A stretch of DNA of 64,000 nucleotides from Kordia sp. TARA_039_SRF (GTDB lineage Bacteria; Bacteroidota; Bacteroidia; Flavobacteriales; Flavobacteriaceae). The notes below the pieces were generated by a model. It did not search any database and was not told the DNA's origin. It worked only from the letters and a program-made list of their open reading frames with translations. Of this stretch, positions 3,686-43,600 are shown piece by piece. The position numbers were made by a program, and so were the translations under genes. The stretch spans positions 98,425 through 162,424 of the forward strand of contig SMNH02000003.1 of assembly GCA_006383075.2 (NCBI GenBank). Direction: 5' to 3'. The number at the start of each line of letters is the position of its first letter. The first letter of the stretch is position 1.

Positions 3686-4363
3686 CTACAGTCTCATCGC
3701 TTTTTTAGTTTCCAGCGTCTTACCATCGGCAGTAATTTTGATTAAATAGATGCCTTTTGGTTGTTTTGACAAATCAATTTGTGGCAGCTTGGATAGTGTT
3801 GTGTGTGTCGTTGTTTGAAGCAATTGTCCGTTCAAATTAAACACTTCTGTGGTAAGTTGTGTGTAATTGTCATGCAGCTGTAACTGAAAAAATCCAGTTG
3901 CGGAAGGATTTGGAAAAAGGGAATTCAATCGTTCTTCTCCTTGAATTCGTTTAAATTCAGTTGAAGTTTCTTTTTCAATTTCAATACCGATAGAACCACA
4001 ACAACATCTACAAGCTATAGCTTTACGAACTGCACTGCCACTAAGCCCAACAATTTCAACGGCATCAATTTTTTCCCAACTGTACATAAGAGCAACTTTT
4101 ATTTCTTTTGCATCACTCACGGGAATTTCTTTTGTTTCAAAGCCCAAATAGGAAATTTCTAAAATATCTTTCGGTTCTACTTCAATGGCGAATCGTCCGT
4201 GTTTGTTGGTAATTGTTCCGTTGGTGGAATTTTTAACTCTCACACTAGCATCTGCTAATATGTTTTTTTCTTCGTCATAAATAGTTCCTGTCAACGTGCG
4301 TTTCTGCGCAAAGCAAGTGATAGAAATACTGAAAAATAAAGTAAAAAGTAATATTCGTTTCAT
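3686..4363 (-). CDS. Secreted carboxypeptidase-like regulatory domain protein with T9SS sorting domain
   Basis: The protein has 225 residues. The signal peptide is residues 1-19, with cleavage before Gln20. A carboxypeptidase-D-regulatory-like beta domain covers about 24-92 (TGTIYDEEKN, SYLGFETKEI), the same fold that begins SusC proteins. A short linker holds a cysteine cluster, ACRCCCG (Cys118, 120, 121, 122). From about 146 to the end is a Por-type T9SS sorting domain (LFPNPSATG, then LNGQLLQ and GIYLIKI near the C-terminus). It is therefore probably exported across the outer membrane and anchored or released at the surface. The gene stands alone between two near-identical direct repeats. 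The function of the cysteine cluster is unknown; metal binding or disulfide formation is possible. Confidence 0.78.
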   Translation of the reverse strand: MKRILLFTLFFSISITCFAQKRTLTGTIYDEEKNILADASVRVKNSTNGTITNKHGRFAIEVEPKDILEISYLGFETKEIPVSDAKEIKVALMYSWEKIDAVEIVGLSGSAVRKAIACRCCCGSIGIEIEKETSTEFKRIQGEERLNSLFPNPSATGFFQLQLHDNYTQLTTEVFNLNGQLLQTTTHTTLSKLPQIDLSKQPKGIYLIKITADGKTLETKKAMRL

Positions 4364-4656: not shown

Positions 4657-7600
4657 CTATTCAAACGTCAAACGAATTCCTTTGGTGTGACTTCTCAATT
4701 CAGGCGCGTACATGCTTTCAATCGTGGTAATTCCGTTGGAGAAGTTTCCTGTATTGTTGACGCGGACTTCATATTCTAAGATAAAAACACCTTTTGGAAT
4801 GCGGTCGAAAAAGAAATTGGTGCTGGCATCGCGCGTGCTTTCATAATACCCAACTCCATCTTGCCATTTGTATTCCGATAGCGTAGTTACAGGCTCCAGA
4901 CCAGCAGCGCGCATATCTTTTAAGTGAATGAACTCTACTTCTTTTTCGTTTCGAATTGTTAAACGTACCGTGATTTTGTCCCCAATTTTTAACGTCTTCT
5001 TTTCAATTGGCACCAAAATCTCTTCACCGTTACGAGTTTCTTTTACGTATAAGGATTTTGATATTTGCAATTTGGAAGCTTCACTTTTAGTAACCTTATC
5101 CAACGTTTCAAAATATTGCCAGTACACAGCACCAAAGCCTGTTGTTTTTCCATTGTTTTTTACATTGATAGTCGCTTTGTCTTTGGAGATTTCATCTTTG
5201 CGCCAAGCAGTTTTAAAATAGCCTGTACCAGCTTCTTTTTCGGTTTCGTCAAGTTTTTTGGTACTGATTTTCTCCGTGCCGATGGTAAATTTCGTGTTGT
5301 CCTTGATAGCAACAAATTGCTTCGGATTCAACAATAAAGCATAGATTGCTTTGGTCGTTGCTTTAGTGGTTGTCCATTGATTTCGCTGTTTTTGTTGGAG
5401 TAACCACAATTGCAATTCTTGAACAATAGTATCGTCTTTGGAAATTTCTGCAAAGGCTTCAATCAATAACGCGTGTGTTTCTATACTGTAAGCGCTAGCA
5501 TATCGTCGGTTGGAAAGTTCTTTCCAATACATACCATTTTCTTCCGATGTTACGGCAGATTCTTCCAACGCTGTCATGATTTTTTTAGCTTCTTTCGTTC
5601 GATTCATTCGTGCCAACGTCAACGCCAACATTGCTTTTTGATTGATAGGTAAGAGCAACCATTCATCTTGCAAATTGTCCAAATACACCTCTATAGCTTT
5701 TTGAACTTTTGTTGGAATCTTTATAAAGTCTGTATTCATGCTTCGAGTATACAGATATGGAATTTGTTCAGCGTAACTAGCAGTATTTGGTTTATCTCTC
5801 AGTCTGGCATAAGCAACCAAAAAGTACGTGTCAATATAGCTAAATGCATCGTCAATAATATCTTCAAAATACAACTTTTCTGATGCTTCTGTAATGACAT
5901 TCAGCTTCACCAAATGCGCAAAGGTTTGTAAAATGTGTAACGTGATGTAATGGTTTTCCTTTCCGCCAGCAAACCAAACAAATCCGCCCGATTCGTTTTG
6001 CAAATCGTTTAACTTTAGCCACATTTCTTTTTGCATTTCTTCCGTAGCTTTTTCGTCAAAAAGTATAGCGAGTTGTTGTTTTCTAGCTGTTTCAGAAGCG
6101 GCATCGCGAACCCAAGGAGTTTCAGCTACTAATAAAGATTTGAATTCAGGATTTTTTTCCAAATCTGACATCAATTGTCCGTTGACTTTCCACGCTTCAA
6201 AGACTTTTTTGATTTTTGGTGAACTTTGTAAAATGTGCGCGGCAATGGCGTTGGCATACAAACGCGCAAAGGTTTGTTCGGCACATTCATATGGATATTC
6301 CATCAAATACGGCAACGACTGAATGGCGTTCCATGTTGGATTGGACGTGTATTCTAACGTTAATTGATGGTTTTGTAACGTCGAACTCGTGTTGTTTTTA
6401 AGTTTTTCAAATGTGATTGTTTTTTGTTCGCCCGCTTTCACCAGAAACGGTTTTGCTTCCGTGAGTAACAAACTGTTTTTAAGAACAGGCAACACACTTT
6501 CTTCGCCGTCAGAGAAATTTTCCGCTGTAGCAAGCACTTTGTACTGAATTGCTTCCACACCTTCTGGAATATAGAGTTTCCACGACAGTGTAGCATTTCC
6601 TTTTGCGTCTACTGTAAATGCTTTGTCCTTTTCGGAAAGATGTATTTTTTCGTCAATTGCGACTTGTGTTTGTGCATCAACCAAGCGTAAGGAGGCAATG
6701 CCTTTGGTGGTTTTGTTTTGTAAATTGACCACTTTCGTGGAAATGACAATCGTATCTTTTTCACGAAGAAAACGCGGCATATTCGGCACGACCATCAACT
6801 CCTTTTGTGTGACTGCATTTTTAAGAATACTTCCGTAGATACCATCTTTTTGATGTGCAAACAATTGAAATTTCCAGCGCGATAATGCTTCGGGAGCATC
6901 AAATTCAATCGCCACATTTCCTTTAGCATCGGTTCGTAAATGCGGATAGAAAAAAGCCGTTTCTTGTAAGTTTTTACGAGTTTCGATGTTGTCAACATCT
7001 TCTTCAGTGATTCCGACAGTTACTTCTACACCATCAATTACTTCTTTGCGCGTACCGTATTTTGTGGTAACAAGAACAACTCCGCCAGCACCTCGACTTC
7101 CATACAAAGCTGTTGCCTGCGCATCTTTTAAAACACTTAATGTGGTAATGTTTTGACTGGATAAATTTCGAAATACATTTTGATTTACAGGAACACCGTC
7201 AATTACAAACAATGGTGCTACATCACCTTGTAAACTTGACCGACCGCGAATGACAATTGTTGAAGATTGTCCAGCACTGCCACTTCCAGTACTTATATTA
7301 ATCCCTATAGCTGCTCCTTCTAGTATTTGGTCTAAGGTTCCAACAGGAACTTGCTGAATAGATTGCCCATATACTGTTACTACAGAAGAAGATACTTTTG
7401 CCGATTGTACTGAGCCGCCATACCCAACCACCGCTACGGCTTCCAATGCTTCTCCTTGCGTTAATTGAACGTTGATATTTTTTTGGTTGCCAACTGTTAT
7501 TATTTTTGGGGTGTATCCAACATACGAAAACAGTAATTCATCTTCTGGATTTGCGTTAATGCTATATATGCCGTCAAAGTCAGTTGTAGTACCTATGTTT

Positions 7601-10600
7601 TTTCCTCTGATGCGTATCGTTCCGCCAGGCAATGGCATTCCAGTTTCATCCAGTAAATATCCATAAATATTCCCTGTACTGTTTGTTTTAAAGTAGTCTT
7701 TCCATTTGAGATTGTTTAGGTATTTATTATTTCTGTATTCTAAATCTTTAAAACTCAGTCCAAAATAATTGAACTCTAAATGACTACGAAATGAAGGAAT
7801 ACGGTAATAGGTTTTTAAGTTGTAAAATTCATGTGAGGGACTTGTATTAAAACCATTTGCTTCTATACTTGGTGTTGAAGTGTAGGAATCGCGAAAAGGT
7901 CGGAAGTTTTTATTCCAATCGTGTACTACAAATTGATCGAGCGATTCGTCATACATAGACGCTAGTACTTCTGCGTTGCTAGGTTTATTCTCCAATCCGA
8001 GAATGGTGAATTTCCAAGTTTCAGGAGTTCCTGGTCGTAATTTGTTACGGAATGTGGTTGTTTTAATGTCTAAGTATTTTTTATCTTCATACAAATTGAT
8101 GGAAAATTGAGTTTTATAAAAGGTATTGAATTTTACATAGCTCATTCGGACACCAATATTGCCTGTCCAGTGTTTTTGGATAGGAATCTTTACAATTTTA
8201 GAACCTTTTTCAATAGTTTCTATAGTAGAAAAAACCGTTTCCCCTTCATGAAATGTTTGTACGTTTACGTGCAGTGGTACATCGCGTAAAGCCGTAGCTA
8301 ATTTTAGCAAAATAAATCCATCGTTTTTATATAAACTATTGCGTATTTCGTAGCTAAATAGTTCATTAGTCGCCAAGTACTGGTCGTTAGGATCAACAAG
8401 TGTAAAGGTGCGTGTTTCTCTGATGCTGTCCTTTAGTTTTTCATCGTACACAGCGGTTTCTAACTGATACATTCCCGATTCCCACGAAGAAGCATCTATT
8501 GTAAATTTGGAAGTTTTACCTGTGTTAAATGTTTCTTGGAACACTTTTGCCTCTTTTTTGTGTTGCGTTTCCGCTTCGTTGTATTGTGTGTATGGAAATT
8601 GCTGAACAAACGCTTCTTTCCCAATTATATGATAATCTGGTATTCCCCACGAACGCTTTTTTAGAATTCTCTCAGGATGTTGAAGCTTGTAAATTTTATA
8701 GTTTCCATTGGCTTCCACAGCAACATTGTTGACATCTTCTGTTAAAATCTCTACTTCCAACGGTAGCTTTTTATTGTTTTTCTTTGAAATATTTGCATAT
8801 AGTTTAAAACCTTTAGTGCTAACACTGACTATTTTTTCAGCTGTTTGTGTTTCGCCGTTGATATCAGTAATTTCAATGGAAACCGTGTATTGATACGCAT
8901 ATACTTTGTCCACATCAACAGTTTCATCGACCAAAGCCACAAAAGGAATATTGAAGTTTCCTTTTTCGTCCGTACGTGTTTCTGCTTCTTTAACTATTTG
9001 ACTTTCTTCGTTGTAACGACCGTATGCATTAATAACTCTTGAAATTTTATAGGAGACTTTGGCATTGGTAACAGCACTTCCTAGCAACGCTTTGGCTGTT
9101 CCTGTTACGTTTATGCTGTCATTAAAAGCAATGTTACTTGTTACAGGGTTCACAAGTACTTCAAAGCGTGGACGTTTGTATTCTTCTACTTTAAATGTGT
9201 ATTCTTCATTGTGAAATTCATCAATGGCGTCCCAAAATGGATGCTCACCCTCGTATTCATAATCTTGATCAACATCGATGGTAAAATCGCCCGTAACGCT
9301 GTTTTTTGGAATTTTAAAAGAGCCACTAAACGAACCAAACTCGTTAGTTTTTAAACGCATAAATTTTAGTTCTCCATCTTCAGAATCTACATACACTTCA
9401 CAAAAAACATTAGGCACCACAGCACTTACACCGTTTTTTTCCTGTAGCAGCAGTACTTTAAAATGTACGGTTTGTCCAGGTCGGTAAATGGCGCGGTCAG
9501 TAAAAACAAAAGGTCTGGCACGCCAATATGATGCGCCCTCTTCTTTTTCATATTTTCTCCCTAGCGAAACTGCCGCTGTATACAAAGTATCACCTTGATG
9601 AATAATATATTTTTCTACAATTTTATGTTTTGCACGCTTGTTAATTGTTGTTTTTCCGTAGCGATTTGTCCGTGCGGTTTGCTTGACCGTTTTTTTACGG
9701 TCGGCTATGTTGATTTTTGCATTGTGAATTGGCTTTCCGCTTTCACGATGTAAAATTGTGTACTCTTCTCGGTCATCGAATTCTGTGATAATTTCAGTCA
9801 GATTTGTCTTTTGAATGCTGTTGTATGAAACAATATTTCCTGCTTTGGGATTTTTGTCAACGTCCGAAAGCATTAGTAAATAATTGCCTAGGGGAAGTTT
9901 CGGAATGGCAATTTCAGTAGTGTGTTCAAAATAGTCTTTTGGAGTATTGGTTACATATACTTTTTGTACTAACGCTTTTTTATGCTTGATGAAATCTGCA
10001 ATTGTTGAATCGCGTTTTTCGTAATTCAAGCGCTCTATAAAACCATAAGGAATGCGATAGACTTTAAAATATAAGGAATCTATATTTTTGATTTCTACAC
10101 TAGCCAAAGCCGTTTTGTTGGAAGGACTAAATTCTTCGACGGTGAATTTTAGTTTTTTATCTTCAATTTTCTTTTGAAGCAGCGCACATTTGATGCCACC
10201 TTCGGAATTTGGATAGTTGGACGCCATGGTTTTGGTAAGCTCATCAGCTTTGAAACGCAAGGAATCAGTTTCGTTTTCTAATTTGTAATGGTTTAAACCA
10301 GAGATTCCTAGGTAATGATCGGCAAGTTCATAATTAATCAACGCTTCTAGCGGATTGTCTTGGTATTTTTTTGCTAGTTGCTGCAAAGCGGTACTATACA
10401 ACAAATCACTTTCAGGCTTTCCATGTATTTTAAGATACATCAACTTGAATCGTTGTAGCATTATTTCGACATGTGCATTGGTGTTGTTTTGTGCTGCTTT
10501 TTCAAGTTTTTGAAACAGTCGTAAAATATGCTGATTCGCAAAAATTTTTCCTGCTGTTATTGGAATGTCTCGTTTTAGAAATACCTCTGTTTGTGCAAAA

Positions 10601-11262
10601 TCTTTTTCAGTAATGGTATAGTTTTCTTCTTTAAGATATTTGTGTGGAATTTCATTTTCGTAAAAATCGAGCGCGTTGTGTGCTAAGATTTCAAACAAAC
10701 TCGAACGATATATTTTCATAGTTTCTTTTCCTTCCAAAAGCAACATATAGTCTTCCACGGGAAGCTGCAGGAGTGTTTCTTCGCGCGCAAGTGAACGTTG
10801 ATAATAGTTGTGAATTTGTGTTATGAACATTTCTTTATTCCACAATTCAATATCGTTTGGAATGGTGTCCAATAGTACTTCAGAACGTTCGTAAATTTTA
10901 TAGCGGTGTTTGTTTAGGTAATCATTCAACAATCGTGCATATAGGTTTTCTAAAATAGCATTTGCGGGAAATTTTTGTTTCGCTATTTCAGCCTGAAGAC
11001 TTTGTAAAACCTGCACTTCCGAATCTTCCGTAAGGAGCAACGAAAATTTAGCACGATAGAGAAAACTTTTTACAATTTGCGCTGTTTCCTGTACTTTATC
11101 TGCTTCTTTATAGATTTTTTCTACTAGTTTTTGAGCCGAAGCAAACTTTCCTTCCAATTCTAACGCTTCAACTTTTTGCCATTTTTTATCAAAATTGTAC
11201 TGCGCAATGCTACATTGTACACACAAAAACATCACAAAACAGATACGGTATATATTTTTCAT
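4657..11262 (-). CDS. Giant alpha-2-macroglobulin family protein with embedded SusC-type CarboxypepD-reg/TonB-plug module
   Basis: The protein has 2201 residues. The signal peptide is 1-20 (ends SIA, then Gln) with no lipobox, so a soluble periplasmic or secreted protein is likely. The N-terminal 550 residues are helical, probably repeat-like. A macroglobulin MG2-type domain starts near 580 (FVFTDRAIYRPGQTVHF). Residues 1197-1401 are a foreign-looking module: a carboxypeptidase-regulatory-like domain (DETGMPLPGG, TTDFDG, FSYVGYTP) plus a TonB plug (PLFVIDGVPV, SVLKDAQATALYG, RGAGGVVLVTTK). The A2M domain then resumes at about 1430 (NLQETAFFYPHL). The thioester motif CAEQ is at 1660-1663, followed by the alpha-helical thioester domain and C-terminal macroglobulin domains. 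The family traps proteases by bait cleavage and covalent thioester capture. The plug module sits where the bait region is expected. It is divergent from the 376-residue secreted-protein gene. Confidence 0.9.
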   Translation of the reverse strand: MKNIYRICFVMFLCVQCSIAQYNFDKKWQKVEALELEGKFASAQKLVEKIYKEADKVQETAQIVKSFLYRAKFSLLLTEDSEVQVLQSLQAEIAKQKFPANAILENLYARLLNDYLNKHRYKIYERSEVLLDTIPNDIELWNKEMFITQIHNYYQRSLAREETLLQLPVEDYMLLLEGKETMKIYRSSLFEILAHNALDFYENEIPHKYLKEENYTITEKDFAQTEVFLKRDIPITAGKIFANQHILRLFQKLEKAAQNNTNAHVEIMLQRFKLMYLKIHGKPESDLLYSTALQQLAKKYQDNPLEALINYELADHYLGISGLNHYKLENETDSLRFKADELTKTMASNYPNSEGGIKCALLQKKIEDKKLKFTVEEFSPSNKTALASVEIKNIDSLYFKVYRIPYGFIERLNYEKRDSTIADFIKHKKALVQKVYVTNTPKDYFEHTTEIAIPKLPLGNYLLMLSDVDKNPKAGNIVSYNSIQKTNLTEIITEFDDREEYTILHRESGKPIHNAKINIADRKKTVKQTARTNRYGKTTINKRAKHKIVEKYIIHQGDTLYTAAVSLGRKYEKEEGASYWRARPFVFTDRAIYRPGQTVHFKVLLLQEKNGVSAVVPNVFCEVYVDSEDGELKFMRLKTNEFGSFSGSFKIPKNSVTGDFTIDVDQDYEYEGEHPFWDAIDEFHNEEYTFKVEEYKRPRFEVLVNPVTSNIAFNDSINVTGTAKALLGSAVTNAKVSYKISRVINAYGRYNEESQIVKEAETRTDEKGNFNIPFVALVDETVDVDKVYAYQYTVSIEITDINGETQTAEKIVSVSTKGFKLYANISKKNNKKLPLEVEILTEDVNNVAVEANGNYKIYKLQHPERILKKRSWGIPDYHIIGKEAFVQQFPYTQYNEAETQHKKEAKVFQETFNTGKTSKFTIDASSWESGMYQLETAVYDEKLKDSIRETRTFTLVDPNDQYLATNELFSYEIRNSLYKNDGFILLKLATALRDVPLHVNVQTFHEGETVFSTIETIEKGSKIVKIPIQKHWTGNIGVRMSYVKFNTFYKTQFSINLYEDKKYLDIKTTTFRNKLRPGTPETWKFTILGLENKPSNAEVLASMYDESLDQFVVHDWNKNFRPFRDSYTSTPSIEANGFNTSPSHEFYNLKTYYRIPSFRSHLEFNYFGLSFKDLEYRNNKYLNNLKWKDYFKTNSTGNIYGYLLDETGMPLPGGTIRIRGKNIGTTTDFDGIYSINANPEDELLFSYVGYTPKIITVGNQKNINVQLTQGEALEAVAVVGYGGSVQSAKVSSSVVTVYGQSIQQVPVGTLDQILEGAAIGINISTGSGSAGQSSTIVIRGRSSLQGDVAPLFVIDGVPVNQNVFRNLSSQNITTLSVLKDAQATALYGSRGAGGVVLVTTKYGTRKEVIDGVEVTVGITEEDVDNIETRKNLQETAFFYPHLRTDAKGNVAIEFDAPEALSRWKFQLFAHQKDGIYGSILKNAVTQKELMVVPNMPRFLREKDTIVISTKVVNLQNKTTKGIASLRLVDAQTQVAIDEKIHLSEKDKAFTVDAKGNATLSWKLYIPEGVEAIQYKVLATAENFSDGEESVLPVLKNSLLLTEAKPFLVKAGEQKTITFEKLKNNTSSTLQNHQLTLEYTSNPTWNAIQSLPYLMEYPYECAEQTFARLYANAIAAHILQSSPKIKKVFEAWKVNGQLMSDLEKNPEFKSLLVAETPWVRDAASETARKQQLAILFDEKATEEMQKEMWLKLNDLQNESGGFVWFAGGKENHYITLHILQTFAHLVKLNVITEASEKLYFEDIIDDAFSYIDTYFLVAYARLRDKPNTASYAEQIPYLYTRSMNTDFIKIPTKVQKAIEVYLDNLQDEWLLLPINQKAMLALTLARMNRTKEAKKIMTALEESAVTSEENGMYWKELSNRRYASAYSIETHALLIEAFAEISKDDTIVQELQLWLLQQKQRNQWTTTKATTKAIYALLLNPKQFVAIKDNTKFTIGTEKISTKKLDETEKEAGTGYFKTAWRKDEISKDKATINVKNNGKTTGFGAVYWQYFETLDKVTKSEASKLQISKSLYVKETRNGEEILVPIEKKTLKIGDKITVRLTIRNEKEVEFIHLKDMRAAGLEPVTTLSEYKWQDGVGYYESTRDASTNFFFDRIPKGVFILEYEVRVNNTGNFSNGITTIESMYAPELRSHTKGIRLTFE
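7060..7674 (-). other. SusC-like CarboxypepD-reg plus TonB-plug insertion inside the A2M gene
   Basis: These are the codons for residues 1197-1401 of the 2201-residue A2M protein. The order and motifs follow residues 28-230 of the SusC protein encoded at 40695-43808: DETGMPLPG, TTDFDG, FSYVGYTP, GEALEAV, SLQGD, PLFVIDGVPV, RGAGGVV. Reading frame and flanks are uninterrupted. No beta-barrel follows. The A2M paralogue at 12758-18835 has an acidic linker at the matching position instead. Confidence 0.88.
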
Positions 11263-11391: not shown

Positions 11392-12522
11392 ATGAAAAAT
11401 CGATATCTACTTTTTGTTTGTTGTGTATGTACGTTCATGAACGTTTTTGCGCAAGGATTTCCGCTACCGAAATTGGCTTCTCCAGAAAGCACTTTTTATA
11501 CATATTTGGATAATGAATACATTTCCAATCCTGAAAAATTTAAGGGAAAAATAAAAAAAGTGGTGCGAACCTTACGGCAGTATGAGCAAGGTGTAAATCC
11601 GACGACGGTTGAAAAAGTAACGCTATTTTTAGACAACAATAAGAAAAGAACTAAAACGGTATCTCGCTATTATGTGTATGGAATTGAAGAGTATAAGGAA
11701 GAGGTGAATCATTTAGAAACTCCAGAAGCGACCATTACCAAAGAAGGAAATAAAACGATAAAAATTATAAAAGATGATGATCCGTATGCGGAATACGGAT
11801 ATACAGAAAAAGGAGACGATGTGTATGTGTATGAAAATGACCTTTTGCTAGCATTTTACAATAATAACGACAGTTTGGCGTATGCGTATAACGATAAAAA
11901 TCAGTTGACGTTTTTACAAACTTTTGAAAGTTTATTGCTCGATGAATTTGATGAAAATGGCGAAACCACTGCGCGTTGGCGTACCGTTTTTGAAGTACGT
12001 GGATTGGAAGTATTGGAGTATCAAAATGAATTGCCGAAGCAAAAAAATATCTATGATAAGTTTGGTGAAGTGATTGATATTTATAAAAAAACATATAACT
12101 ACAACGCTGATAAACTACTCACCAAATTCACAACTGAATATAAACGATATCTATCTGACGATTATGTAGCTTCTGTTCCAATCAATCAACAGGAATATGA
12201 GACATTTCAAAGAGTATTTACCAAAGATAGTCTTCAAACAGGAACGTTTCAATATTCCAAAACCAACAAAATCACAGCATATCAACGTACCAAAGGCGAA
12301 GAAAATGAAGTCTATAAAATCACTTATAACAAAGAAGATTTAATGTATTTGGTAGAAGGAACGCTTACGTTTTACCAAAAAGAAAAACTCGTTGCTTTAG
12401 ATGTGGAGTATGAATATTTGTATGATGACAAAGGCAATCCCAAAAGCATCAAAACATTTTACTACCTCGGCGGTGAAAAGATGATGGATAAAGAAACATT
12501 TTTTGAGATTGAGTATTATTAG
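11392..12522 (+). CDS. Secreted protein of unknown function with YD-like beta motifs
   Basis: The protein has 376 residues. The signal peptide is residues 1-20 (cysteine-rich core LLFVCCVCTFMNVFA, cleavage before Gln21), with no lipobox-like C-terminal cysteine and no T9SS sorting domain. The mature part is rich in Tyr, Asp, Lys and Thr and contains loosely repeated strand-turn units (YAYNDKNQLTFL, YDKFGEVIDIY, YLYDDKGNPKSI), which resemble the antiparallel hairpins of YD/RHS or YwqK-type proteins; this is a resemblance only. It is transcribed divergently from the plug-containing A2M gene across a 129-base gap, so shared regulation is possible. I do not recognise a named family. Confidence 0.65.
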   Translation: MKNRYLLFVCCVCTFMNVFAQGFPLPKLASPESTFYTYLDNEYISNPEKFKGKIKKVVRTLRQYEQGVNPTTVEKVTLFLDNNKKRTKTVSRYYVYGIEEYKEEVNHLETPEATITKEGNKTIKIIKDDDPYAEYGYTEKGDDVYVYENDLLLAFYNNNDSLAYAYNDKNQLTFLQTFESLLLDEFDENGETTARWRTVFEVRGLEVLEYQNELPKQKNIYDKFGEVIDIYKKTYNYNADKLLTKFTTEYKRYLSDDYVASVPINQQEYETFQRVFTKDSLQTGTFQYSKTNKITAYQRTKGEENEVYKITYNKEDLMYLVEGTLTFYQKEKLVALDVEYEYLYDDKGNPKSIKTFYYLGGEKMMDKETFFEIEYY

Positions 12523-12757: not shown

Positions 12758-15700
12758 TTAATCTACTTTCACACGAATTCCTTCGCTATGACTGCTAAAT
12801 TCTGGCGCGTACATACTTTGAATGGTTGAAATTCCATTGGAAAAATCACCTTTGTTGTTGACGCGCAAGTCGTACTCGAATACAAACAAACCTTTCGGTA
12901 AATAGTCAAAGAAGAAGTTGGTACTTGCATCTTTGGTACTTTCGTAATAGCCCAAACCGTCTTGCCATTTGTATTGCGATAACACGTTTATAGGCTCAAA
13001 TCCAGCTGCGCGCATGTCTTTTAAATGAACGAATTCCATAGGTCTATCATTTCGTAATTCAATGCGAACTCTTACCAAATCGCCCAATTCTAATTGCGTG
13101 TTTTCGTCGATTTCAGTAATGACCTCACCCGAAGCATCATACGTTCGCTTGAATAGTTTTTTACTCAATTTCAACGACGTTTCTGCGGTTGTAATTTTAT
13201 CTAAATCTTCAAAATATTGCCAGTACAATCCGCCCCAAGCGATCCCTTTTCCTGTTTTGGTTAAAGTTACTTTTGCCATTTCAGGTTGAACTTCATTGCC
13301 ATTCCACGAAGTTTTAAAATAACCTGTGCCAGCTTCTACTTTTACATTTTCGAGTTTTTCAGGCGAAATCTGCTGATTGCCCACTGTAACCTCAACCATG
13401 TCAGTTACCGAAAGCCAATCGCTTCCTTGCAACAATAACGCATATACTGCGTCGGCAGTAGCTTTGGTCGTTGACCAACGATTGGTTTGTTTGTGCTTCA
13501 GCAGCCATATTTTTAAATTATCTACGGAAGTGATATCATTCGAAACTTCCGAAAACGCTTCAATCAGCAATGCTTGCGTTTCAATCGGCGCCTGATACCA
13601 ATACCACGAACGTGTATTTGCTTTCCAGTACATGCCCAATTCGTCACTCGTAATGCTGTTTTCTTTGAGCGATTGCAGAATTCCGTTTGCCGTTTTTGTA
13701 CGCTCGTTTCTGTGTGCAATCAACGCCATCAATCCTTTGGAATACAAACTGCGACTCAGCCAATACTTGTCAATTTGACCTAAATAATAATCGCGAATTT
13801 TTTGTGCTTCTTCCGATAATTGAATTTCCTCAAAAAAGCTTCGCATGTACAAATAATGCAGTTGCGAATACGATAAACGGTCTTTGGATAAATCTGCGTC
13901 TTTGTCGTATTTGCGAATGTTTTTGTATTCTTTGATGAATTCAGCATCCAAATATTGAATTGCTTTTCGCAGTAGTTGTTGCGTGTTTCCATCTTTCGGA
14001 TTGAACACATTGAGCTTTTTTAAATGTCCAAAACCAGTTGCAATATGTTGTGTGATAAATCTATTATCGCGTCCGCCCGAAAACCAAGGGAATCCGCCAG
14101 AAGACGATTGCATTTGCTGTAATTTTTGCAGCGTGCGGGTTTCTTCATGTTGCATGCGATTGAGATCGAATAACAACGCAATTCGTTTTTTCTGAGCTGC
14201 TTCCGATTGCGCATCGCGAACCCAAGGTGTTTCTTGTAAAATCAAGGATTTTAATTCTTGGTTCTTTTCTAAATTGCTCAACAAAGCATCTGACGATTTC
14301 CACTGATTGAACACTTGCTGAATTCTCGGATTGCTATTCGCGATGTGACTCGCCAACGCATTCGCATAATAACGAGAAAACGTTTGCTCTGAACATTCAT
14401 ACGGATATTCCATCAAATATGGCAATGCTTGTACCGCATACCACGCAGGATTGGATGTGATTTCCAAACTCAATTTGTGATGCGAAAGTGTAGTCGATTT
14501 TGTTTCCGCCAATTTATCGAGCGTAAACGTTTTTGTTTCGTTAGAACGAATCCACATAGGCAAGGTTTCTGTCACCAACATACGATTTGACAATACTGGC
14601 AACGCATTTTGTTCGCCATCGCTGTAGTCGCCAGCTTTTGCCGTAATGGTGTATTGAATGGCTTGCAAATTCTTCGGAATGTACAACAACCACGATACTT
14701 GCGTATTGCCTTTTGCTGTTACTGAAAAGTTCTGTGATGGTTCACCTAAACGTGGAAATAAGGCAGGATTGATGTCATTTCCTGTAAACGGATCAATCAG
14801 TTGTAACATCGCTTCTCCGTTGAGATTTTTTTCGGAGAGATTCGAAATTTTTGTGCTAATGACTACGGCATCACCTTCGCGTACAAAACGCGGAGCATTT
14901 GGCAATACCATCAACTCTTTTTGTGTGACTGTTGTCAACGTTTTGGTTGCGGAATGCAATTCTTTGGTATGTGCTAACAATTGCAATTTCCACTTGGTCA
15001 ACGCTTCTGGAGTCGTAAAGGTAAACGATACATTGCCTTCGCTATCGGTTTGTAATTGTGGAAAGAAAAAGGCTGTTTCCTGCAAGTTTTTTCGAGGAAT
15101 GATAGCTTCTTTTTGTGTTGTTTCACCAATACTTTTTGGGTCTTTTGCGTTTAAAACAGTGGTGACTTCCATATTTTTTTCAGATTTTTCGACCATTGAA
15201 AAAGCAACTGCTTCTTCACTTTCTTCCCCAACCTCATCCATCACAACTTCTTCAGCTACAGGTACTGCTATTTTTCGTTGCACCATACTGGATGATTCTA
15301 ATGCGACAGCTCTTTGATATCGCGCTCTTCGATAGTTTGAAAGATAAAGCCCAAACCAATTTAAGCGGTCAAAAGTTTGTTTTTGGTAGCGACGCTCATA
15401 GTTTTCTTGGTCTCCAAAGCGAGCGATATAAAAACTAGTTTTATCGTCAATACTGACATAACTTCTGTACGAAGGTTGGTATATTGGATTAAAATTCCAC
15501 TGATGTGATTTGAATTGATCTAAGGAAGCACCATACATGCTCGACAATACTTCTGCGGCAACTTTTTCTCCTTTGGGACCTTTGATTTTAAAACTCCATG
15601 TTTCTTTGTCATTTGGCTTTAGTTTGTCTCTAAACGTTGTGGTTTCAATCGTCAAATCCGTTGGAGGATAGTTGACTTGAATGTTGAGCCGTTTTTCAAG

Positions 15701-18700
15701 AAAGCTATTGTACATTGTTCCTGAACAATGCACTACAAATCCGCCTTCGTCTTTCTTATCCACAGGAATTCGGAATAGTTGTTTGCCATCTTCTAGCGAA
15801 ATGGTGTACGAGTTTACAATTTGTTCGTCTTTTTCAATATCGACAGTCACTTTAAGGTCTTTTGAAGCAGAACGAACCGTTACCATAACGTCGTCGCCAG
15901 CTACATACGATGTTTTGTCAGCATATATTTCCAGCAACGCATTATCAGCCGCATACTTATCTTTCGGATTCCAAACATCGATGTATACAATGTCTTTAAT
16001 TTCAAATCCGTTGGCATCGGTTGTTACGATTTCTACCACATATTTTCCTGCGTCCCAGCGTTTGATTCTTTTCAGTTTAATGTTGGAGCTTTTTTCAGTA
16101 TCGAAAGTTTCGGTAAGAACGTTTTTTCCTTTGTTCCACGTTCTGAAATTTTGCTCTTCCTCCGAATACGCTTCATGCGGAAAGAGTTCTTTAAATTTAG
16201 CTTCCGCGATAGAAGGGAAGTCAGGCACTTTGTACGGGCGGTTGCGCAACACACGATTTGGCGCTTGTAATTTGTGAATGGTAATGGTTCCTTTGGCAGG
16301 AACTTTTTCACCATTTAAATTTTTCGTGATGATTTCTATGTTGTGATTACGTTTGGTAGCATCTAGTTTATCATTCATGGAAATACTTGCTTGCAAACTG
16401 TGATAACCTACGTGTATAATGGTAGATGTACTGCGTGTTTCGCCATTAATATCTGTAATATCAGCCGTTATATAATAGTCGAAAATCGGCAGCAAATCTT
16501 TGGTAGCGCTTGCTTCTGGAATGGCTTTAAAGTTGATATCAAACTGTCCGTCAGCGTTTGTGGTCGTTTCTCCACTTGTAATTTGTTGTTCAGAAGTTAC
16601 CAATGAAGGTCGTCTCCAATACATCCATGACGGATACCGTTGTTGTCGTTTTACCGAATAGGTCACTTTGGCATCAGAAATGCTGCTTCCCGCGTATGCT
16701 ATCGCTTTTCCTGTGACGGTTACGGTGTCATTTACTGCAAAGGTTTTGGTTACAGGTAAAAACTCTGCTTCAAACTTTGGACGTTTGTATTCTTCCACAG
16801 AAAAATAAACATCGCCCAAATTGCTGTCTTTAGAGGACGCTTGAATAGAAAAATTTCCTGTCAAGCCATTATTTGGGATGCTAAATTCTCCTTTGATAGA
16901 ACCATATTCGTTCGTCACAAACGTACGCTCTTCAATGATTTGATAATTGGCATCGCGTAGCACGACTTTTATATTTTCGTTGGCTACAATGTTTGAATTT
17001 TTTTCTTTTTGATGCACCAAAATTCCTTTGAAATGAACTGTTTGAGAAGGTCTGTAAATGCTTCTATCCGTAAATAAAAAGAGTCTTTCAGTAGTGCGTT
17101 CGTCTCTGTAATTTCTTCTGTAAAATGAAAAATCATCAAAATGCGCTAGGTCATTTTCCTTTGGAACTTTGATAGAAATATCATAAAAATTATGACTTCT
17201 GCTTGCTTCTAAAACCGCACTTCCTGTAGCGTCGGTTGTTAAACTCTTTTGCACGCTTTTGTCACGATATCCTTTTTTATAGGAAATAGTAAATGTTTGA
17301 TTGGCAATTGGTGTTCCGTTAGCTCTATCAGTCAGTTGAAAAATATAATTTTTTGCGGTCTGTTTGTGTGTAATGGCAGTATTAGTAACTTGCAAAACAT
17401 CCACTGCTATAAATGATTCGTTCAATTTTTTAGTAGGCGAAGCTGTTAGTACATAAAAACCATTTTCCAAAGGTGGAATTATCACTTCCGTACTGTGCGG
17501 CTGATAATCTTGCACTGATGGCAAACTAGAACTCCAAGTTTCATTCGTTGGCAAATTAGCGATAAATTGTACCGTCGATTTGTTTCGTCGTGCTTTTCTG
17601 TAGGCGTCAAGTTGGTTGTATGGAATTTTATGTACCGAATAGTACAGTGTATCCACATTTTTGTACGTGATGAGCATTTTGGAGTGTTTTCCAATCGGAA
17701 TCACTTCTTCGGTATTGATATCAATATCTTTTAGTAAAATATCATTTTTGATTTGCTTGCATCGCACCGCAGCTTCACTATCTGGGAATTTTGAAATGAC
17801 TTCATTGCAAAGCTCCATCGCTTTTTTGTATTCCCATTGGTATTTTTCTTTTGAATCGTGTCTAAACTTACTTCCTTGCTGTTCATGTAAATTAGCCAAT
17901 TCTGCAACATACATTCGCGAGTACGAATGCGTTGTATATGTAGTACTTTCGTTTTGATATGCTTGCATGAGCTTTTCTTTAGAATCATCAAAACTGGCTT
18001 TTTCTTCTACATACTGCAAGCGTTCAATATTGACATTAATCAATGCTTCTGGCGATTTGTCATTTAAGTGAAAACGAATCAGGTTTTGATAGAGTTGCAG
18101 CGCTTTAAATTCCCGCGAAAGCGAATCTTTTGTCGTTATAGTTAATTCCGTAAATAATTTTGCATCACACAGATATTCTTCATTGTCAATTGTAAAGATT
18201 TCTTCAGGCTTGATGATGTTATTTTCGGGTGTTTTGTAAAAATCTAAGGCATTGTGCGCTAAAAAGTCATACACTGTCGGGCGAAACTTTTTAGAACCTT
18301 CTTGCTCAACTAGAATGGCGTTAAATTCGCTTAAATTTATTTTCTGCAATTGTGACGCATTTTCGAGAGAAGCGTCTAAGTGTACAATGATTTCAGTAAA
18401 TATTGTTTGTAAATCCCACGTTCTAAAATCGGTAGTGTCAATCTTTTTTCCTGTTCGGGTACGATTGTAAAATTTATAACGATTCGATTTGAAATATTGC
18501 CAATATAACTGTCCTAAAATACTTTGCAAGATGTTTTTGGTGGGAAATGATTGTGACGCAATTTCGGCTTTTAACGAATTGATAATCGTCAATTCAGCAT
18601 CTTCTTCTAGCGTTAATTGATAGTTAGATTTGTGTAAAAAAGCTTTGACAATTTGGGGATTGTTTTGCTCTTTTTTAGCCAACGTATAAATTTCGGAAGC

Positions 18701-18835
18701 TTTCTTAAAGGCAGATTTTGTCAATCCTTTTTTCTCTAAATTGTTGACTTCTTTCCACAATTCCACATATTTTTCTTGTGCGTTTGCGAATTGACTAAAT
18801 AATACAATCATAAATATGGTGAGTACGTTTTTCAT
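12758..18835 (-). CDS. Giant alpha-2-macroglobulin family protein (paralogue without plug module)
   Basis: The protein has 2025 residues from the ATG at 18835. The open frame extends 20 codons further, but that start would bury the signal peptide (MKNVLTIFMIVLFSQFANA, then Gln20). Layout: a helical N-terminal half; an MG2-type domain from about 585 (FLFTDRSIYRPSQTVHFKG); bait-domain region; an acidic linker around 1190-1212 (VMDEVGEESEEAV); an A2M domain from about 1250 (NLQETAFFFPQL); a thioester motif CSEQ at 1481-1484 in YPYECSEQTF; then a thioester domain and C-terminal macroglobulin domains. It is expected to act as a periplasmic or secreted protease trap. The C-terminal halves of the two paralogues are clearly related (shared FVHLKDMRAAG-like and STNFFFD segments). 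It is divergent from a TPR-protein gene. Confidence 0.9.
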   Translation of the reverse strand: MKNVLTIFMIVLFSQFANAQEKYVELWKEVNNLEKKGLTKSAFKKASEIYTLAKKEQNNPQIVKAFLHKSNYQLTLEEDAELTIINSLKAEIASQSFPTKNILQSILGQLYWQYFKSNRYKFYNRTRTGKKIDTTDFRTWDLQTIFTEIIVHLDASLENASQLQKINLSEFNAILVEQEGSKKFRPTVYDFLAHNALDFYKTPENNIIKPEEIFTIDNEEYLCDAKLFTELTITTKDSLSREFKALQLYQNLIRFHLNDKSPEALINVNIERLQYVEEKASFDDSKEKLMQAYQNESTTYTTHSYSRMYVAELANLHEQQGSKFRHDSKEKYQWEYKKAMELCNEVISKFPDSEAAVRCKQIKNDILLKDIDINTEEVIPIGKHSKMLITYKNVDTLYYSVHKIPYNQLDAYRKARRNKSTVQFIANLPTNETWSSSLPSVQDYQPHSTEVIIPPLENGFYVLTASPTKKLNESFIAVDVLQVTNTAITHKQTAKNYIFQLTDRANGTPIANQTFTISYKKGYRDKSVQKSLTTDATGSAVLEASRSHNFYDISIKVPKENDLAHFDDFSFYRRNYRDERTTERLFLFTDRSIYRPSQTVHFKGILVHQKEKNSNIVANENIKVVLRDANYQIIEERTFVTNEYGSIKGEFSIPNNGLTGNFSIQASSKDSNLGDVYFSVEEYKRPKFEAEFLPVTKTFAVNDTVTVTGKAIAYAGSSISDAKVTYSVKRQQRYPSWMYWRRPSLVTSEQQITSGETTTNADGQFDINFKAIPEASATKDLLPIFDYYITADITDINGETRSTSTIIHVGYHSLQASISMNDKLDATKRNHNIEIITKNLNGEKVPAKGTITIHKLQAPNRVLRNRPYKVPDFPSIAEAKFKELFPHEAYSEEEQNFRTWNKGKNVLTETFDTEKSSNIKLKRIKRWDAGKYVVEIVTTDANGFEIKDIVYIDVWNPKDKYAADNALLEIYADKTSYVAGDDVMVTVRSASKDLKVTVDIEKDEQIVNSYTISLEDGKQLFRIPVDKKDEGGFVVHCSGTMYNSFLEKRLNIQVNYPPTDLTIETTTFRDKLKPNDKETWSFKIKGPKGEKVAAEVLSSMYGASLDQFKSHQWNFNPIYQPSYRSYVSIDDKTSFYIARFGDQENYERRYQKQTFDRLNWFGLYLSNYRRARYQRAVALESSSMVQRKIAVPVAEEVVMDEVGEESEEAVAFSMVEKSEKNMEVTTVLNAKDPKSIGETTQKEAIIPRKNLQETAFFFPQLQTDSEGNVSFTFTTPEALTKWKLQLLAHTKELHSATKTLTTVTQKELMVLPNAPRFVREGDAVVISTKISNLSEKNLNGEAMLQLIDPFTGNDINPALFPRLGEPSQNFSVTAKGNTQVSWLLYIPKNLQAIQYTITAKAGDYSDGEQNALPVLSNRMLVTETLPMWIRSNETKTFTLDKLAETKSTTLSHHKLSLEITSNPAWYAVQALPYLMEYPYECSEQTFSRYYANALASHIANSNPRIQQVFNQWKSSDALLSNLEKNQELKSLILQETPWVRDAQSEAAQKKRIALLFDLNRMQHEETRTLQKLQQMQSSSGGFPWFSGGRDNRFITQHIATGFGHLKKLNVFNPKDGNTQQLLRKAIQYLDAEFIKEYKNIRKYDKDADLSKDRLSYSQLHYLYMRSFFEEIQLSEEAQKIRDYYLGQIDKYWLSRSLYSKGLMALIAHRNERTKTANGILQSLKENSITSDELGMYWKANTRSWYWYQAPIETQALLIEAFSEVSNDITSVDNLKIWLLKHKQTNRWSTTKATADAVYALLLQGSDWLSVTDMVEVTVGNQQISPEKLENVKVEAGTGYFKTSWNGNEVQPEMAKVTLTKTGKGIAWGGLYWQYFEDLDKITTAETSLKLSKKLFKRTYDASGEVITEIDENTQLELGDLVRVRIELRNDRPMEFVHLKDMRAAGFEPINVLSQYKWQDGLGYYESTKDASTNFFFDYLPKGLFVFEYDLRVNNKGDFSNGISTIQSMYAPEFSSHSEGIRVKVD

Positions 18836-39258: not shown

Positions 39259-40680
39259 TTAATATCCAGGGTTTTGAACCATATTAGGATTTGCATTAAT
39301 CTCAGCCTGAGGAATTGGGAACGTAAATTTCTCAGATGAAACAGGCAACGAACATGGAACAGTTTCACAATCTGCAGAAGCTCTTTCAATTCCTTCGTTT
39401 AAGATATTTCTATATCTTTTGATGTCGATATATCTGAAACCTTCATAACATAACTCTACTCTTCTTTCAGCTTTGATGTCAGTAATAGCTTGATTTAAAG
39501 AGTTGTAAGCAGCAATTGTTTGGGGAGATCCAAATCTAGCACTTCTTACAGCAGAAACGTCAGCAGCAGCAGCAGCATAATCAGGAGCCGCTTTTCTAGC
39601 ATGAGCTTCAGCTCTGATTAAATACATTTCAGAAAGTCTCATTGCTTTGTAATCATTGATATAGTTTGTATCCGCATTTGGAGGATATTTACCAATAATT
39701 AACAAAGGAGTTGCTGCACCTGGATCACTTTCTGGATCAAGGTTAACTGAACGACGGATATCACCAGCAGTAAATTCGCTAAATAATCCATTTGACATTT
39801 CCATGAATGCTCCGCCAGTACCTGTGAAAATCCAGTTAAAAGCAATAGAAGCGTTGTTTCCTTGAACATTATCAAATTTGAAGATTACTTCCGTAGAATC
39901 TCCATCACCAGCAAACATAGCAGCATATTGTGCCTGGTCTGCTAAAGTATAGTTAGCAATAATAGTATTTGCATTAGAAATAGCAGTGTTAAAATCACCA
40001 GTATATAATGCAATTCTAGCTCTTAAGAACGTGATGAAATCTGGAGTAACATAATTGATATCCGTTGCACTAGAAGGAATTAAACTTGCAGCTAAAGTCA
40101 AGTCATTTTCAATTTCGATTAAGTTTTCACCAACAGTTTGTCTTGCTGGTAAACCAGAAGTAGCTACTACGTTTTGGTAGTATACACCTAATGAAGATGG
40201 GTCCATTAAATCTGGAGCATAGTAAGTTAATAAGTCAAAGTGCAAATATGCTCTAAAGGCATAACTTTGCGCTAAAATATTATCATACGCATCTTCTTCT
40301 CCTGTTTGAGGAATAATAGTACTAGCAGCTGCTAACAAACGGTTAAAGTTGTTAATAGCATTGTATCTGTCAGCCCAAGTCCCTTGGTCTCCACCAGCTT
40401 CGTTTAATACTTGATTGATTAAAGCGATTTGCTGTCCACCATTATCAGCTCCAACTTTACAGTTGTCTGTGAAAATAGAGTTGAAAGCTAATAAACTTGC
40501 TTGTCCACCACCACGATTAATACTATTGATGGCTCCACGAAGTCCGTTTTCTAAGTCAGATACACTTTGAAAGGCAGTTTCCTCTACTAAGTTATCTACT
40601 GGAAAACGTTCTAATTGATCATCACAACTTACTGTAAAAAGTAAGGTAACAATAATTGGTATTAGAAAATATTTTTTCAT
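39259..40680 (-). CDS. RagB/SusD family nutrient-binding outer membrane lipoprotein (locus 1)
   Basis: The protein has 473 residues. SusD proteins form the lid over the SusC barrel and capture substrate at the cell surface. The lipoprotein signal is MKKYFLIPIIVTLLFTVSC with Cys19, then DDQLERFP. The N-terminal TPR-like region includes ETAFQSVSDLENGLRGAINS and RAYLHFDLLTYYAP. The C-terminal SusD signature is LSEMYLIRAEAHARK, followed by IKAERRVELCYEGFRYIDIK. It is 14 bases downstream of susC1, in the usual order. No glycosidase, sulfatase or peptidase gene is in the operon, so the substrate cannot be inferred. Confidence 0.95.
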   Translation of the reverse strand: MKKYFLIPIIVTLLFTVSCDDQLERFPVDNLVEETAFQSVSDLENGLRGAINSINRGGGQASLLAFNSIFTDNCKVGADNGGQQIALINQVLNEAGGDQGTWADRYNAINNFNRLLAAASTIIPQTGEEDAYDNILAQSYAFRAYLHFDLLTYYAPDLMDPSSLGVYYQNVVATSGLPARQTVGENLIEIENDLTLAASLIPSSATDINYVTPDFITFLRARIALYTGDFNTAISNANTIIANYTLADQAQYAAMFAGDGDSTEVIFKFDNVQGNNASIAFNWIFTGTGGAFMEMSNGLFSEFTAGDIRRSVNLDPESDPGAATPLLIIGKYPPNADTNYINDYKAMRLSEMYLIRAEAHARKAAPDYAAAAADVSAVRSARFGSPQTIAAYNSLNQAITDIKAERRVELCYEGFRYIDIKRYRNILNEGIERASADCETVPCSLPVSSEKFTFPIPQAEINANPNMVQNPGY

Positions 40681-40694
40681 TTTTATTTTTTTAT

Positions 40695-43600
40695 TTAAAA
40701 GTTTAAGTCAAATCCTAAAGAGAATGTTCTAGGAATCGGATAGTCAAAGAATCCACCAGATTGGTTACCTTCTGGATCAAATCCTCTCCATTTCGTCCAA
40801 GTAACTAAGTTTGTACCTTGAACATAAATTCTCATTCCAGAAAAGACGTTTGTTTTCTCTAAAATTTTTGAATCAACAGTATATGAAAGTGTAACATTTC
40901 TTAAACGTAAGAAAGATGCATCTTCGATGTAACGGTCTCCAATTTCTGCACGACCTTGGAACGTTAATCTTGGAATATCTGTTATTTGACCTGGAGTAGT
41001 CCATGCGTTTAACATAGTGACAGATTGGTTAGCGAATCCTGCTAAAGAAGCATCTTCGATAATCGCTAATGAACCATTACGTCTCCATCTGTCAGCTGCA
41101 AAAGAGAATAATGCATTTAATGCAAATCCTTTATAAGAGATATCAGCTCCAAAACCTCCAGTATATGTAGGATCAAAGTTTTTGTCTAAATAAACTCTGT
41201 TATTAGGAGTATATACATTTGTGATGTTACCATCAACATCATAATAAAGTGGTTGACCATTAGAAGGATCTACACCAGCCCAACGTACATCAAACCATGT
41301 AGCAGCTTGACGACCTTCAGCATTACGTAATGTAACTCCTGTAAAATCTACTGGTAACTCTTCAATTCTGTTTTTGTTGTAGTTAGCATTACCACGTACT
41401 GTAATAGCCCATGGGTTTGTTTGAGATTTTCTCAATACATCAAATGCAATTTGTAAATCAACCCCTGAGTTTCTCATGCTACCAATGTTAGTTGTTACTG
41501 TACCGTAACCTGTTTGAGCAAGAGATAATGGTGCGTTGTTTGAGAATAAGTCTTCTGTTAAGAAGTTATAGTAATCAAACTCCCCAGAAAGTCTATTATT
41601 CCATAAACCAAAACTTAAACCAATGTTTAACTGATTTGTTGTTTCCCATTTGATATCCTCATCAATCAACCCGTTAAGTCCATAACCTGTACCTAATTGG
41701 TAACTTGTTGGATCAGCAAATACTGTTTGTAATCCTTGGTAACGAGTACCAACACCTTGATTACCTACAACACCGTAACTAGCTCTTAATTTCAAAGCAT
41801 TGATGAAATCAACATTGCTCATGAAATCTTCATTATCAATATTCCAACGACCAGCAACAGACCAGAATACACCTGTTGAGTTTTTAGGGAAACGAGAAGT
41901 TTGGTCACGTCTGATTGTACCAGAGAAACCATATTTTCCATCATAATCTAAATCTAATGTTGCGAATAATGAAGCTAACGCTAGTTCAGTTTCAGTAGAG
42001 AATACACCTGGAACATAGTTTAATGCCAATTCAGTTTCAGCATCTAAAATTCCATCTTCATTTGTATCTTCTCCTTCTTGTGTGTTTCCACTTGTGAAAC
42101 CAGCAGAAGAACCTGGTAATGCAGGGTTCAAACCGAAAGCAGTATATCCAGCTTGTTGCGTGTTTGAGTAGTTGTACTCACCGTATACAGAAGCAGATAA
42201 ATTTAACTTGTCAGTAATGTCATTTTGATATCTCAAGAAAGCATTTAAGATGAAGTTAGCATCTCTAAAGAAAGTTTCTCCTTGAGAACCTTTTACTTCA
42301 GCTCCTTGGTTAGGAGTAATTAAACCTCTAATACTTCCTGGAGTAGTAATTTGTAATAATTCAATATTTGTATAGTCAATACCAATAGAACCTCCAACTG
42401 TTAAGTTTTTAGCGAAGTTGTAGTCAGCGTTGATACCTCCTACCGCTTTAAATTCAGTTTCTTGGTCAGTATTGAATCTTGCAGTGTTTAATGCTAAGAA
42501 AGGAGTGTTTAAGAATCCGTTAGGATTATCTATATCTCCATTTGTATCGATAGCTTGACTTCGGATAGTACCAAAAGTATTTAAGCTACCGTCTGGGTTA
42601 AATCTGTTTAAGTAAGGAAGTCCAATATAAGGTACAATGAACGGGTTGTCTAACTGACCACCTGTATTGTTACCTCTGACAGCATCCACAATAAAATTAC
42701 TTACAGAACGGTTCAACGTTAATGTAGTTCCATAGTTAAATTTCTTGTCTGCAGAACTTCCATTGAAGTTATTTCTGAAAGAAAAACGTGTCAAGTCACT
42801 ACCTAATGTAATACCCTCCTGCTTGTAATACTGCATAGAAGTATATGAACTTGTATTCTCATTACCAGTAGAAATACTCAATTCGTGAGAAACTGTTGTT
42901 CCCTGCTGAAAGAATACATCTGACCAGTTTGTGTTTGTTTGTGCAGCGATAGCAGCAATTCGAGCATCAGATAAACCATCACCAAATTGTGTGCCAGGTA
43001 ACAAATCTCTTTGCCATGTTAATAGCTGCGAAGCATTCATTACTTCAAATCTAGTTTTAGGCTTTACAGCAACACCATAAAGTGTTCTGTATTGAAGATT
43101 TACTCCAGATCCTTTTTTACCTTTTTTAGTTGTTACAATTACAACACCACCAGCACCTCTGTTACCATAAATCGCTGTTGCAGCTGCATCTTTCAATACA
43201 GATAGCGTTTCGATGTCGTTTTGGTTTAAACTTCTAAAGTTATCTTGATCTACTGGTACACCATCGATAACAAATAATGGCTCAATATCACCTTGTAAAG
43301 ATCCACGACCTCTAATGATGATTGTTGCCGATTGACCTGGTTGTCCAGAACCTGTGTTCACGTTAACCCCTGCCGCAGCACCCTGAAGTACCTGGTCTAA
43401 CGAGTTAATCGGAACTTGTTCAATTGTCTCACCATCAACTGTAGCAATAGAAGATGCTACTTTTGCACTGTTTACAGCTCCACCATAAGCTACAACTGTT
43501 ACAGCTTCTAAAGCTTCACCTTGTTTTAATTGTACATTGATAGTAGTAGACGAAACCTTGATTTCTTGAGGAGTATATCCTACATAGCTAAATACAAGCG

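Follow-up and report, generated by a model that had tools for sequence, protein, structure and literature searches.

The best-described proteins to which the locus presented here can be compared are the bacterial type I alpha-2-macroglobulins (A2Ms), such as E. coli ECAM and Salmonella A2M, and the SusC/RagA receptors, among them RagA (6sli), BT3090 (8aa4, 9hfj) and Bt1763. The bait of ECAM is described as largely disordered (PMC4498604). A study on Bt1763 places the TonB box of this receptor at a position that corresponds to the sequence LEAVAVVGYG discussed below (PMC7782687). The present analysis concerns a gene that combines elements of both groups. It is located in a 64,000-nucleotide stretch of DNA from Kordia sp. 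TARA_039_SRF (contig SMNH02000003.1, positions 98,425 to 162,424), which is called the window throughout, and encodes an A2M protein whose putative bait position carries the module found at the N-terminus of SusC receptors. Searches of the PubMed Central full text gave no description of a plug or TonB box within an A2M; in this collection, subscription papers and preprints are mostly not covered. The wider question is which threats bacterial A2Ms counter and how the tuning of their baits comes about.

A SusC-type module in an A2M of Kordia

The gene occupies positions 4657..11262 of the minus strand, on which all features of the protein lie, and its frame of 2201 residues is uninterrupted by stops. 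Its domains and motifs identify the protein as an A2M: the MG2 domain (PF01835, residues 585-676, 9235..9510, E value 2.6e-18), the A2M family domain (PF00207, residues 1435-1521, 6700..6960, 3.2e-16) and the bMG10 domain (residues 2065-2188, 4699..5070, 1.7e-32) all exceed the Pfam cut-offs, and the thioester motif of the form CxEQ is intact as CAEQT (residues 1660-1664, 6271..6285). The N-terminus MKNIYRICFVMFLCVQCSIAQ resembles a type I signal in a reading by eye only. Residues 1197-1403 form, in frame, the N-terminal module of SusC receptors without the barrel. The module consists of the N-terminal extension (NTE; CarbopepD_reg_2, residues 1199-1274, 7441..7668, Pfam 2.9e-15), the TonB-box-like sequence LEAVAVVGYG (residues 1273-1282, 7417..7446), which aligns with LEQVVVLGYG of RagA, the TonB-receptor plug (residues 1289-1395, 7078..7398, Pfam 1.7e-13) and the SusC/RagA signature TIGR04057 (residues 1372-1401, 7060..7149). 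Its sequence matches in the PDB include 8aa4_A (E value 8.5e-30) and 6sli_B (2.7e-26). In NCBIfam, positions 3-211 of the 981 positions of TIGR04056 match residues 1199-1408 of the A2M with 220.5 bits (E value 4.6e-65); this score stays below the full-length cut-off of 368.25, as is to be expected of a module that lacks a barrel, and the A2M domains come next. Since the barrel test failed, the window protein is not regarded as a SusC receptor.

An earlier note, which was made from the sequence alone, had reported these SusC motifs in frame and without a barrel at 7060..7674, and the coordinates proved to be exact: GNIYGYLLDETG is found at residues 1197-1208 (window position 7674 downwards), DETGMPLPG at 1205-1213, FSYVGYTP at 1245-1252, PLFVIDGVPV at 1350-1359, RGAGGVVLVTTK at 1390-1401 (to window position 7060) and NLQETAFFYPHL at 1431-1442. 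Its spacing from the module to the A2M domain and the thioester also agrees with our count, in which NLQETAFF follows after 30 residues and CAEQT after 259. Among the profiles it had proposed, MG2, CarbopepD_reg_2, Plug and PF00207 were matched, and PF07678 (TED) had no match in the 2201-residue protein up to an E value of 1. Two features had been missed, namely the TonB-box sequence between NTE and plug and the presence of the module's nearest SusC relative within the same window.

The insertion covers approximately residues 1172-1429 (6976..7749) as delimited by comparison with relatives, counted from an FG motif to the residue preceding the K-N pair of RKNLQETAFF. In every relative compared, a variable stretch lies ahead of R(K/T)NLxETAFF; on its other side are a conserved MG domain and the SMYDxSLD..FG motif. 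A structural model of residues 985-1640 (mean pLDDT 70.9, pTM 0.41) predicts an MG-type domain, a disordered linker, the NTE, a disordered TonB box, the plug and MG7 in this order. In a Foldseek search with this model, all of the 50 rows shown were A2M/complement-family chains, including the bacterial type I structures 4ziq, 4rtd and 5a42; TM-scores were about 0.2 and the root-mean-square deviation (rmsd) was large, because the model has several domains that are loosely placed and connected by disordered linkers. Modelled alone (mean pLDDT 72.5, pTM 0.40), the module has a confidently predicted NTE (pLDDT 93-97), which matches the NTE of BT3090 in 9hfj (TMt 0.90, rmsd 0.8), and a plug (pLDDT about 58-90) which matches SusC/RagA plugs, e.g., 5fq8_D over 132 columns at 4.7 Å; the TonB-box stretch between these folded domains is predicted to be disordered. 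Both models inform on the individual domains and not on their relative placement. The variable stretch of the relatives and the MG-type domains on either side of the module in the fragment model support the view that the module occupies the site where A2Ms keep their bait, as the earlier note had proposed, and the module model together with the Foldseek matches supports a folded plug with moderate confidence.

Of 11 Kordia genomes, eight encode an A2M with the module, and three of these eight consist of a single contig. The module region is thus genuine, and an assembly chimera, which had been named as a possible refutation, is ruled out. The remaining three genomes (G007, G008 and G009) yielded no A2M of the 2.2-kb-codon type in the genus search. 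All eight Kordia modules retain the TonB-box pattern L-x-x-V-x-[IV]-[VT].

Receptor pieces in the baits of related A2Ms

The bait segments of related A2Ms were collected as best matches and not as a random sample; they derive mostly from Flavobacteriaceae, and some of the open frames end at locus edges. After five duplicates had been dropped from 134 segments, 129 distinct segments remained; four loci (L141, L143, L183 and L189) gave no segment under the extraction pattern, and one truncated segment was excluded from the alignment of 128 (A2). Among these 128 segments, Pfam detected the NTE in 47 and the plug in 42, and TIGR04056 matched 69. The NTE also resembles BamP, with 30 of 128 members matching in this way and a Foldseek row for 9n2d_E. 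A profile derived solely from 15 SusC receptors matched 73 of the 129 segments at E<1e-3, the best E value among 645 shuffled segments being 0.0023; across the A2M open frames, it gave 74 domain matches in the bait and none elsewhere. Its best covered part was the TonB box with 59 domain matches vs. 47 for the NTE and 38-49 for positions of the plug. A full-length SusC profile of 1016 positions, in which the plug ends at position 236, gave 82 matches, none of which extended past position 252; therefore, the baits contain no piece of the barrel. NTE and plug occur together in 33 of the 129 baits, and the complete set of NTE, TonB box and plug is retained in 27 by profile. Further baits have the NTE without the C-terminal half of the plug (14), the C-terminal half of the plug without the NTE (14), the TonB box or fragments only (26) or none of these pieces (42). 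The strict TonB-box motif was found in three of the 14 baits with the C-terminal half of the plug and no NTE, a looser one in four. Similar architectures, whose existence the earlier note had guessed, are thus common in the sample examined. A side observation from a pattern search is that three A2Ms of this family (L034, L048 and L059) have no match to the CxEQ-type pattern, so loss of the thioester may occur.

Short baits also contain receptor peptides. Of 66 profile-negative linkers, i.e., those with neither NTE nor plug, 54 could be anchored for motif counts. The strict TonB-box motif is present in 15 of the 54 (mean of the shuffles 0.18, maximum 2 in 1000) and the plug peptide LxGRVAGV in nine (shuffle mean 0.004); among 1026 control windows taken from other parts of these proteins, one had the TonB-box motif. 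The patterns were written after the sequences had been read, so shuffles and controls guard against composition and not against this choice. Nine linkers contain both motifs, and in seven of them the receptor order is reversed, with the plug peptide ahead of the TonB box; the pattern search itself had found seven two-motif linkers, all permuted, and missed L175 and, as judged by eye, L159, which have the native order.

Origin, turnover and selection of the module

The nearest SusC relative of the Kordia module, labelled SusC-X in this analysis, is encoded about 30 kb from the A2M gene (40695..43808, minus strand) and shares 134 of 206 residues with the module (65%). SusC-X is a full-length SusC (TIGR04056, 723 bits over positions 1-981) with NTE and plug at residues 27-222 (Pfam, 43143..43730), it adjoins a SusD partner (39259..40680, minus strand, PF07980), and identity and trees suggest that it represents the likely donor lineage. 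A counterpart is present in all 11 Kordia genomes. Among the eight with a module-bearing A2M, the distance to the A2M gene is about 35-61 kb in five and about 107 kb in one; in the other two, SusC-X lies far away or on another contig.

A tree was built from 31 A2M modules and 39 SusC modules. It places the Kordia modules as the sister group of the window's SusC-X (100/99), and those of G020 and a Nonlabens as the sister group of the SusC of G020 itself (100/99). Approximately unbiased (AU) tests rejected a single clade of all A2M modules (p 6.5e-5) as well as a clade of the Kordia modules with the G020/Nonlabens pair L052 and L168 (p 0.0017). Going by these sequence comparisons, receptor modules have been captured into A2M baits more than once. 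The AU tests and the scrambled peptide order reject decay of a single ancient module as a complete account. In another tree, whose bootstrap was unsettled (correlation 0.942), 19 A2M modules fall into one group (99/85), so shared descent with many losses fits part of the tree. There, the eight A2M modules of Kordia constitute a single clade (100/99) that excludes the SusC-X copies of their genomes, which leaves ongoing gene conversion between A2M module and SusC-X unsupported in Kordia; modules of the VIT type from G007 and G009 do cluster with the SusC-X of these two genomes (98/85).

Turnover of the baits is high. On a quick backbone tree of 129 rows that was built without the bait, five bait states require at least 46 changes, with a mean of 72.4 after shuffling. 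The Winogradskyella loci L111 and L116 are identical at 150/156 and 247/256 positions of the flanks (96%); their baits, of 127 and 78 residues, share 23/75 positions (31%). Between G000, which is the genome holding the window, and seven other Kordia genomes, the dN/dS of the module is 0.18-0.31 (dS >1 in six of the seven comparisons), compared to 0.05-0.13 for the N-terminus of SusC-X, 0.10-0.16 for the C-terminal half of the A2M and 0.17-0.23 for its N-terminal half (6/7 computable). The module is therefore constrained, yet less so than in the receptor. The A2Ms of G000 and G002 are 70% identical in the N-terminal half and 68% in the module (pS 0.58 and 0.48), and 93% in the C-terminal half (pS 0.30); this suggests a separate history for the front of the A2M including the module, such as a recombination event immediately after the module would leave.

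Several neighbouring genes complete the picture of the locus. A tandem A2M paralogue without a module match in the Pfam scan (12758..18835, minus strand) carries the acidic linker EEVVMDEVGEESEE at its bait position (residues 1195-1208, 15212..15253), i.e., at the coordinate where the earlier note had placed it. An open reading frame of 376 amino acids without Pfam match lies between both A2M genes on the opposite strand (11392..12522, plus strand), and downstream of the module-bearing A2M is a gene for a 225-amino acid protein with an NTE domain, a type IX secretion system (T9SS) sorting tail and no plug (3686..4363, minus strand). A pbpC gene, whose presence nearby is a criterion for bacterial type I A2Ms, was not among the open reading frames of the window that were scanned, which were a selection.

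Related modules in other proteins and lineages

Barrel-less modules are not confined to this type of A2M. At the loci L294, L295, L248-L252 and L270, an NTE-plug set lies between VIT/VWA and DUF2135 regions; L248-L252 were assigned to the VIT type by their shared NTE-plug-DUF2135 order, and for the genome of L252 by the longer L295, which has a VIT domain. The genome of the window also encodes a VWA/YfbK protein with an NTE, a TonB box and a plug ending at about half (L293:1492-3444). In Kordia, the VIT/VWA modules stem from the SusC-X lineage. Furthermore, G007 and G009 possess a second type of A2M of 1521 amino acids, in which TonB box and plug lie at residues 669-774, ahead of the A2M domain at 839-928 and TED at 1025-1312 (Pfam, G007 copy).

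A check across the phylum gave 25 further segments from 26 loci (none from L318), and six of the 25 matched at E<1e-3, two of them weakly and through NTE-like matches only (L300 and L305). In G436, which belongs to another class, the bait SLDEVIVVSERPLIEKSSTNTTRIVSSDEIQPLPVRGGRVDEVGYIVEG matches the organism's own NTE/plug proteins of 951-999 amino acids with 46-49% and fuses two segments that are separate in the receptor, the TonB box and VRG..DE.GY.VEG. The bait of G490 consists of a repeat of a 3080-amino acid protein joined to a peptide of an NTE/plug receptor; a peptide of about YPNPQIAxGAxKxNRIYDSxVTTQ is common to the A2M bait, the 3080-amino acid protein and a VWA protein of this genome (L326, L327 and L328).

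Possible functions of the captured module

Anatomy, distribution and history of the insert are observed; its role is proposed on their basis. We tentatively infer that it works as a receptor-mimicking bait, which would offer proteases the cell's own receptor segments, and consider this somewhat short of probable. The bait would present those stretches of the cell's TonB-dependent receptors that face the periplasm, chiefly the flexible TonB box flanked by two folded domains. A protease able to attack the receptors would cut the bait instead, the cut would spring the trap, and the protease would be bound via the thioester; through the exchange and repeated acquisition of receptor pieces, the bait would stay in step with the receptors and proteases present at a given time. 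This proposal is ranked first because it explains the insertion site, the scrambled peptides, the use of the lineage's own receptor family and the thioester. The earlier note had offered two interpretations, a decoy for proteases that attack receptors or a tether to the transport machinery. Bait position and, with moderate confidence, the folded plug are in line with it; the putative decoy has become better motivated because of the repeated captures, the scrambled peptides in short baits and the use of a non-SusC receptor in another class, and the tether is treated below as a rival.

Several observations weigh against a receptor-mimicking bait. In 42 of the 129 baits, neither a profile-detected piece of the module nor a motif is present, and such pieces are therefore dispensable for a bait here. 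A folded plug would be a poor protease substrate, with only the linkers and the TonB box cleavable. In the eight Kordia modules, the mean pairwise identity per 10-residue block is 0.50-0.52 in the TonB box vs. 0.84-0.87 in the C-terminal part of the plug, so a specially conserved set of TonB-box residues is not borne out, and the Kordia module is under purifying and not diversifying selection. Half of the G490 bait peptide comes from a non-receptor repeat, as expected of undirected capture. Finally, VIT-type proteins of Kordia and G016 and one Kordia VWA/YfbK protein have the same kind of barrel-less module, and these sister modules in proteins with no known bait speak against a role as bait only. 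A broader version of the receptor-mimic proposal, in which the A2M baits of Bacteroidota are a hypervariable site repeatedly reloaded with pieces of the organism's own TonB-dependent receptors, of any family that the lineage possesses, and kept current as decoys by recombination between receptor and trap genes, is more doubtful; the trap would then display exactly what its attackers have to cut.

The tether would take the form of TonB docking: the TonB box, presented by plug and NTE, would recruit TonB and place the trap under outer-membrane receptors where foreign proteins enter, or TonB would pull the bait. This reading stays in consideration because coverage of the module is highest at the TonB box; the box also persists in 15 of the 54 domain-less linkers and in all eight Kordia modules, TonB-box mutants of Bt1763 are reported as non-functional (PMC7782687), and docking would account for the VIT/VWA modules better than a bait does. 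However, box-less plug peptides and a scrambled order are unexpected for a docking motif, few of the baits with the C-terminal half of the plug and no NTE have a strict box, and in Kordia other parts of the module are better conserved than the box; on balance, docking is considered unlikely, though to be taken seriously. Next in rank and also unlikely is neutral capture, in which the bait is an unconstrained linker that fragments of abundant receptor genes enter by illegitimate recombination and in which they decay, misfolding barrel pieces being purged. The 36 plug matches in the Kordia genome and the tens of SusC genes in relatives, the turnover of the bait states, the non-receptor fragment in G490 and the dN/dS of the module, which exceeds the value for the SusC-X N-terminus by a factor of 2-4, all fit such a process. 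Yet the dN/dS is well below 1 in all seven Kordia comparisons (with the dS values given above), the complete NTE, TonB box and plug is kept in 27 baits, and only the N-terminal quarter of the receptor is captured, so the absence of the barrel needs an extra filter.

A role in envelope localisation or assembly that has nothing to do with baiting, by which NTE and plug would give large periplasmic proteins an outer-membrane partner such as the BAM or T9SS machinery, is the least probable reading and appears very unlikely. It would suit the BamP-like character of the NTE and the fact that A2M, VIT-type and VWA/YfbK-type proteins share this module, and deletion of the NTE harms Bt1763 function, perhaps not via transport according to the authors of that study (PMC7782687). 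Baits made of the C-terminal half of the plug or of short peptides without an NTE, however, do not fit, and the two Kordia A2Ms of the window differ in having the module.

If baits are built from the organism's own receptors, these receptors would be the guarded assets, and the identity of the captured receptor would predict which proteases the trap meets. Docking, if true, would be a case of a periplasmic protein that uses a TonB box outside a transporter. The repeated acquisition of receptor pieces hints at an unrecognised link between trap and receptor.

Comparison with known systems

The Kordia protein shares MG2, A2M and MG10 domains, the thioester motif and a bait located before the domain starting with ETAFF with the bacterial type I A2Ms. 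Unlike in ECAM, its putative bait is a receptor module that spans about 207 residues and contains two folded domains. The succession of NTE, TonB box and plug in the module is that of the SusC/RagA receptors; in contrast to these receptors, which form a 22-stranded barrel, the module is barrel-less and embedded in another protein. The VIT/VWA and VWA-YfbK proteins resemble the Kordia A2M in having an NTE and a plug, or a cut plug, without a barrel, which in Kordia derive from the SusC-X lineage, but they possess neither A2M domains nor a thioester. The second-type A2Ms of 1521 amino acids likewise carry a TonB box and a plug ahead of the A2M domain; however, they belong to another A2M subfamily, have no NTE and represent a separate module lineage in the tree.

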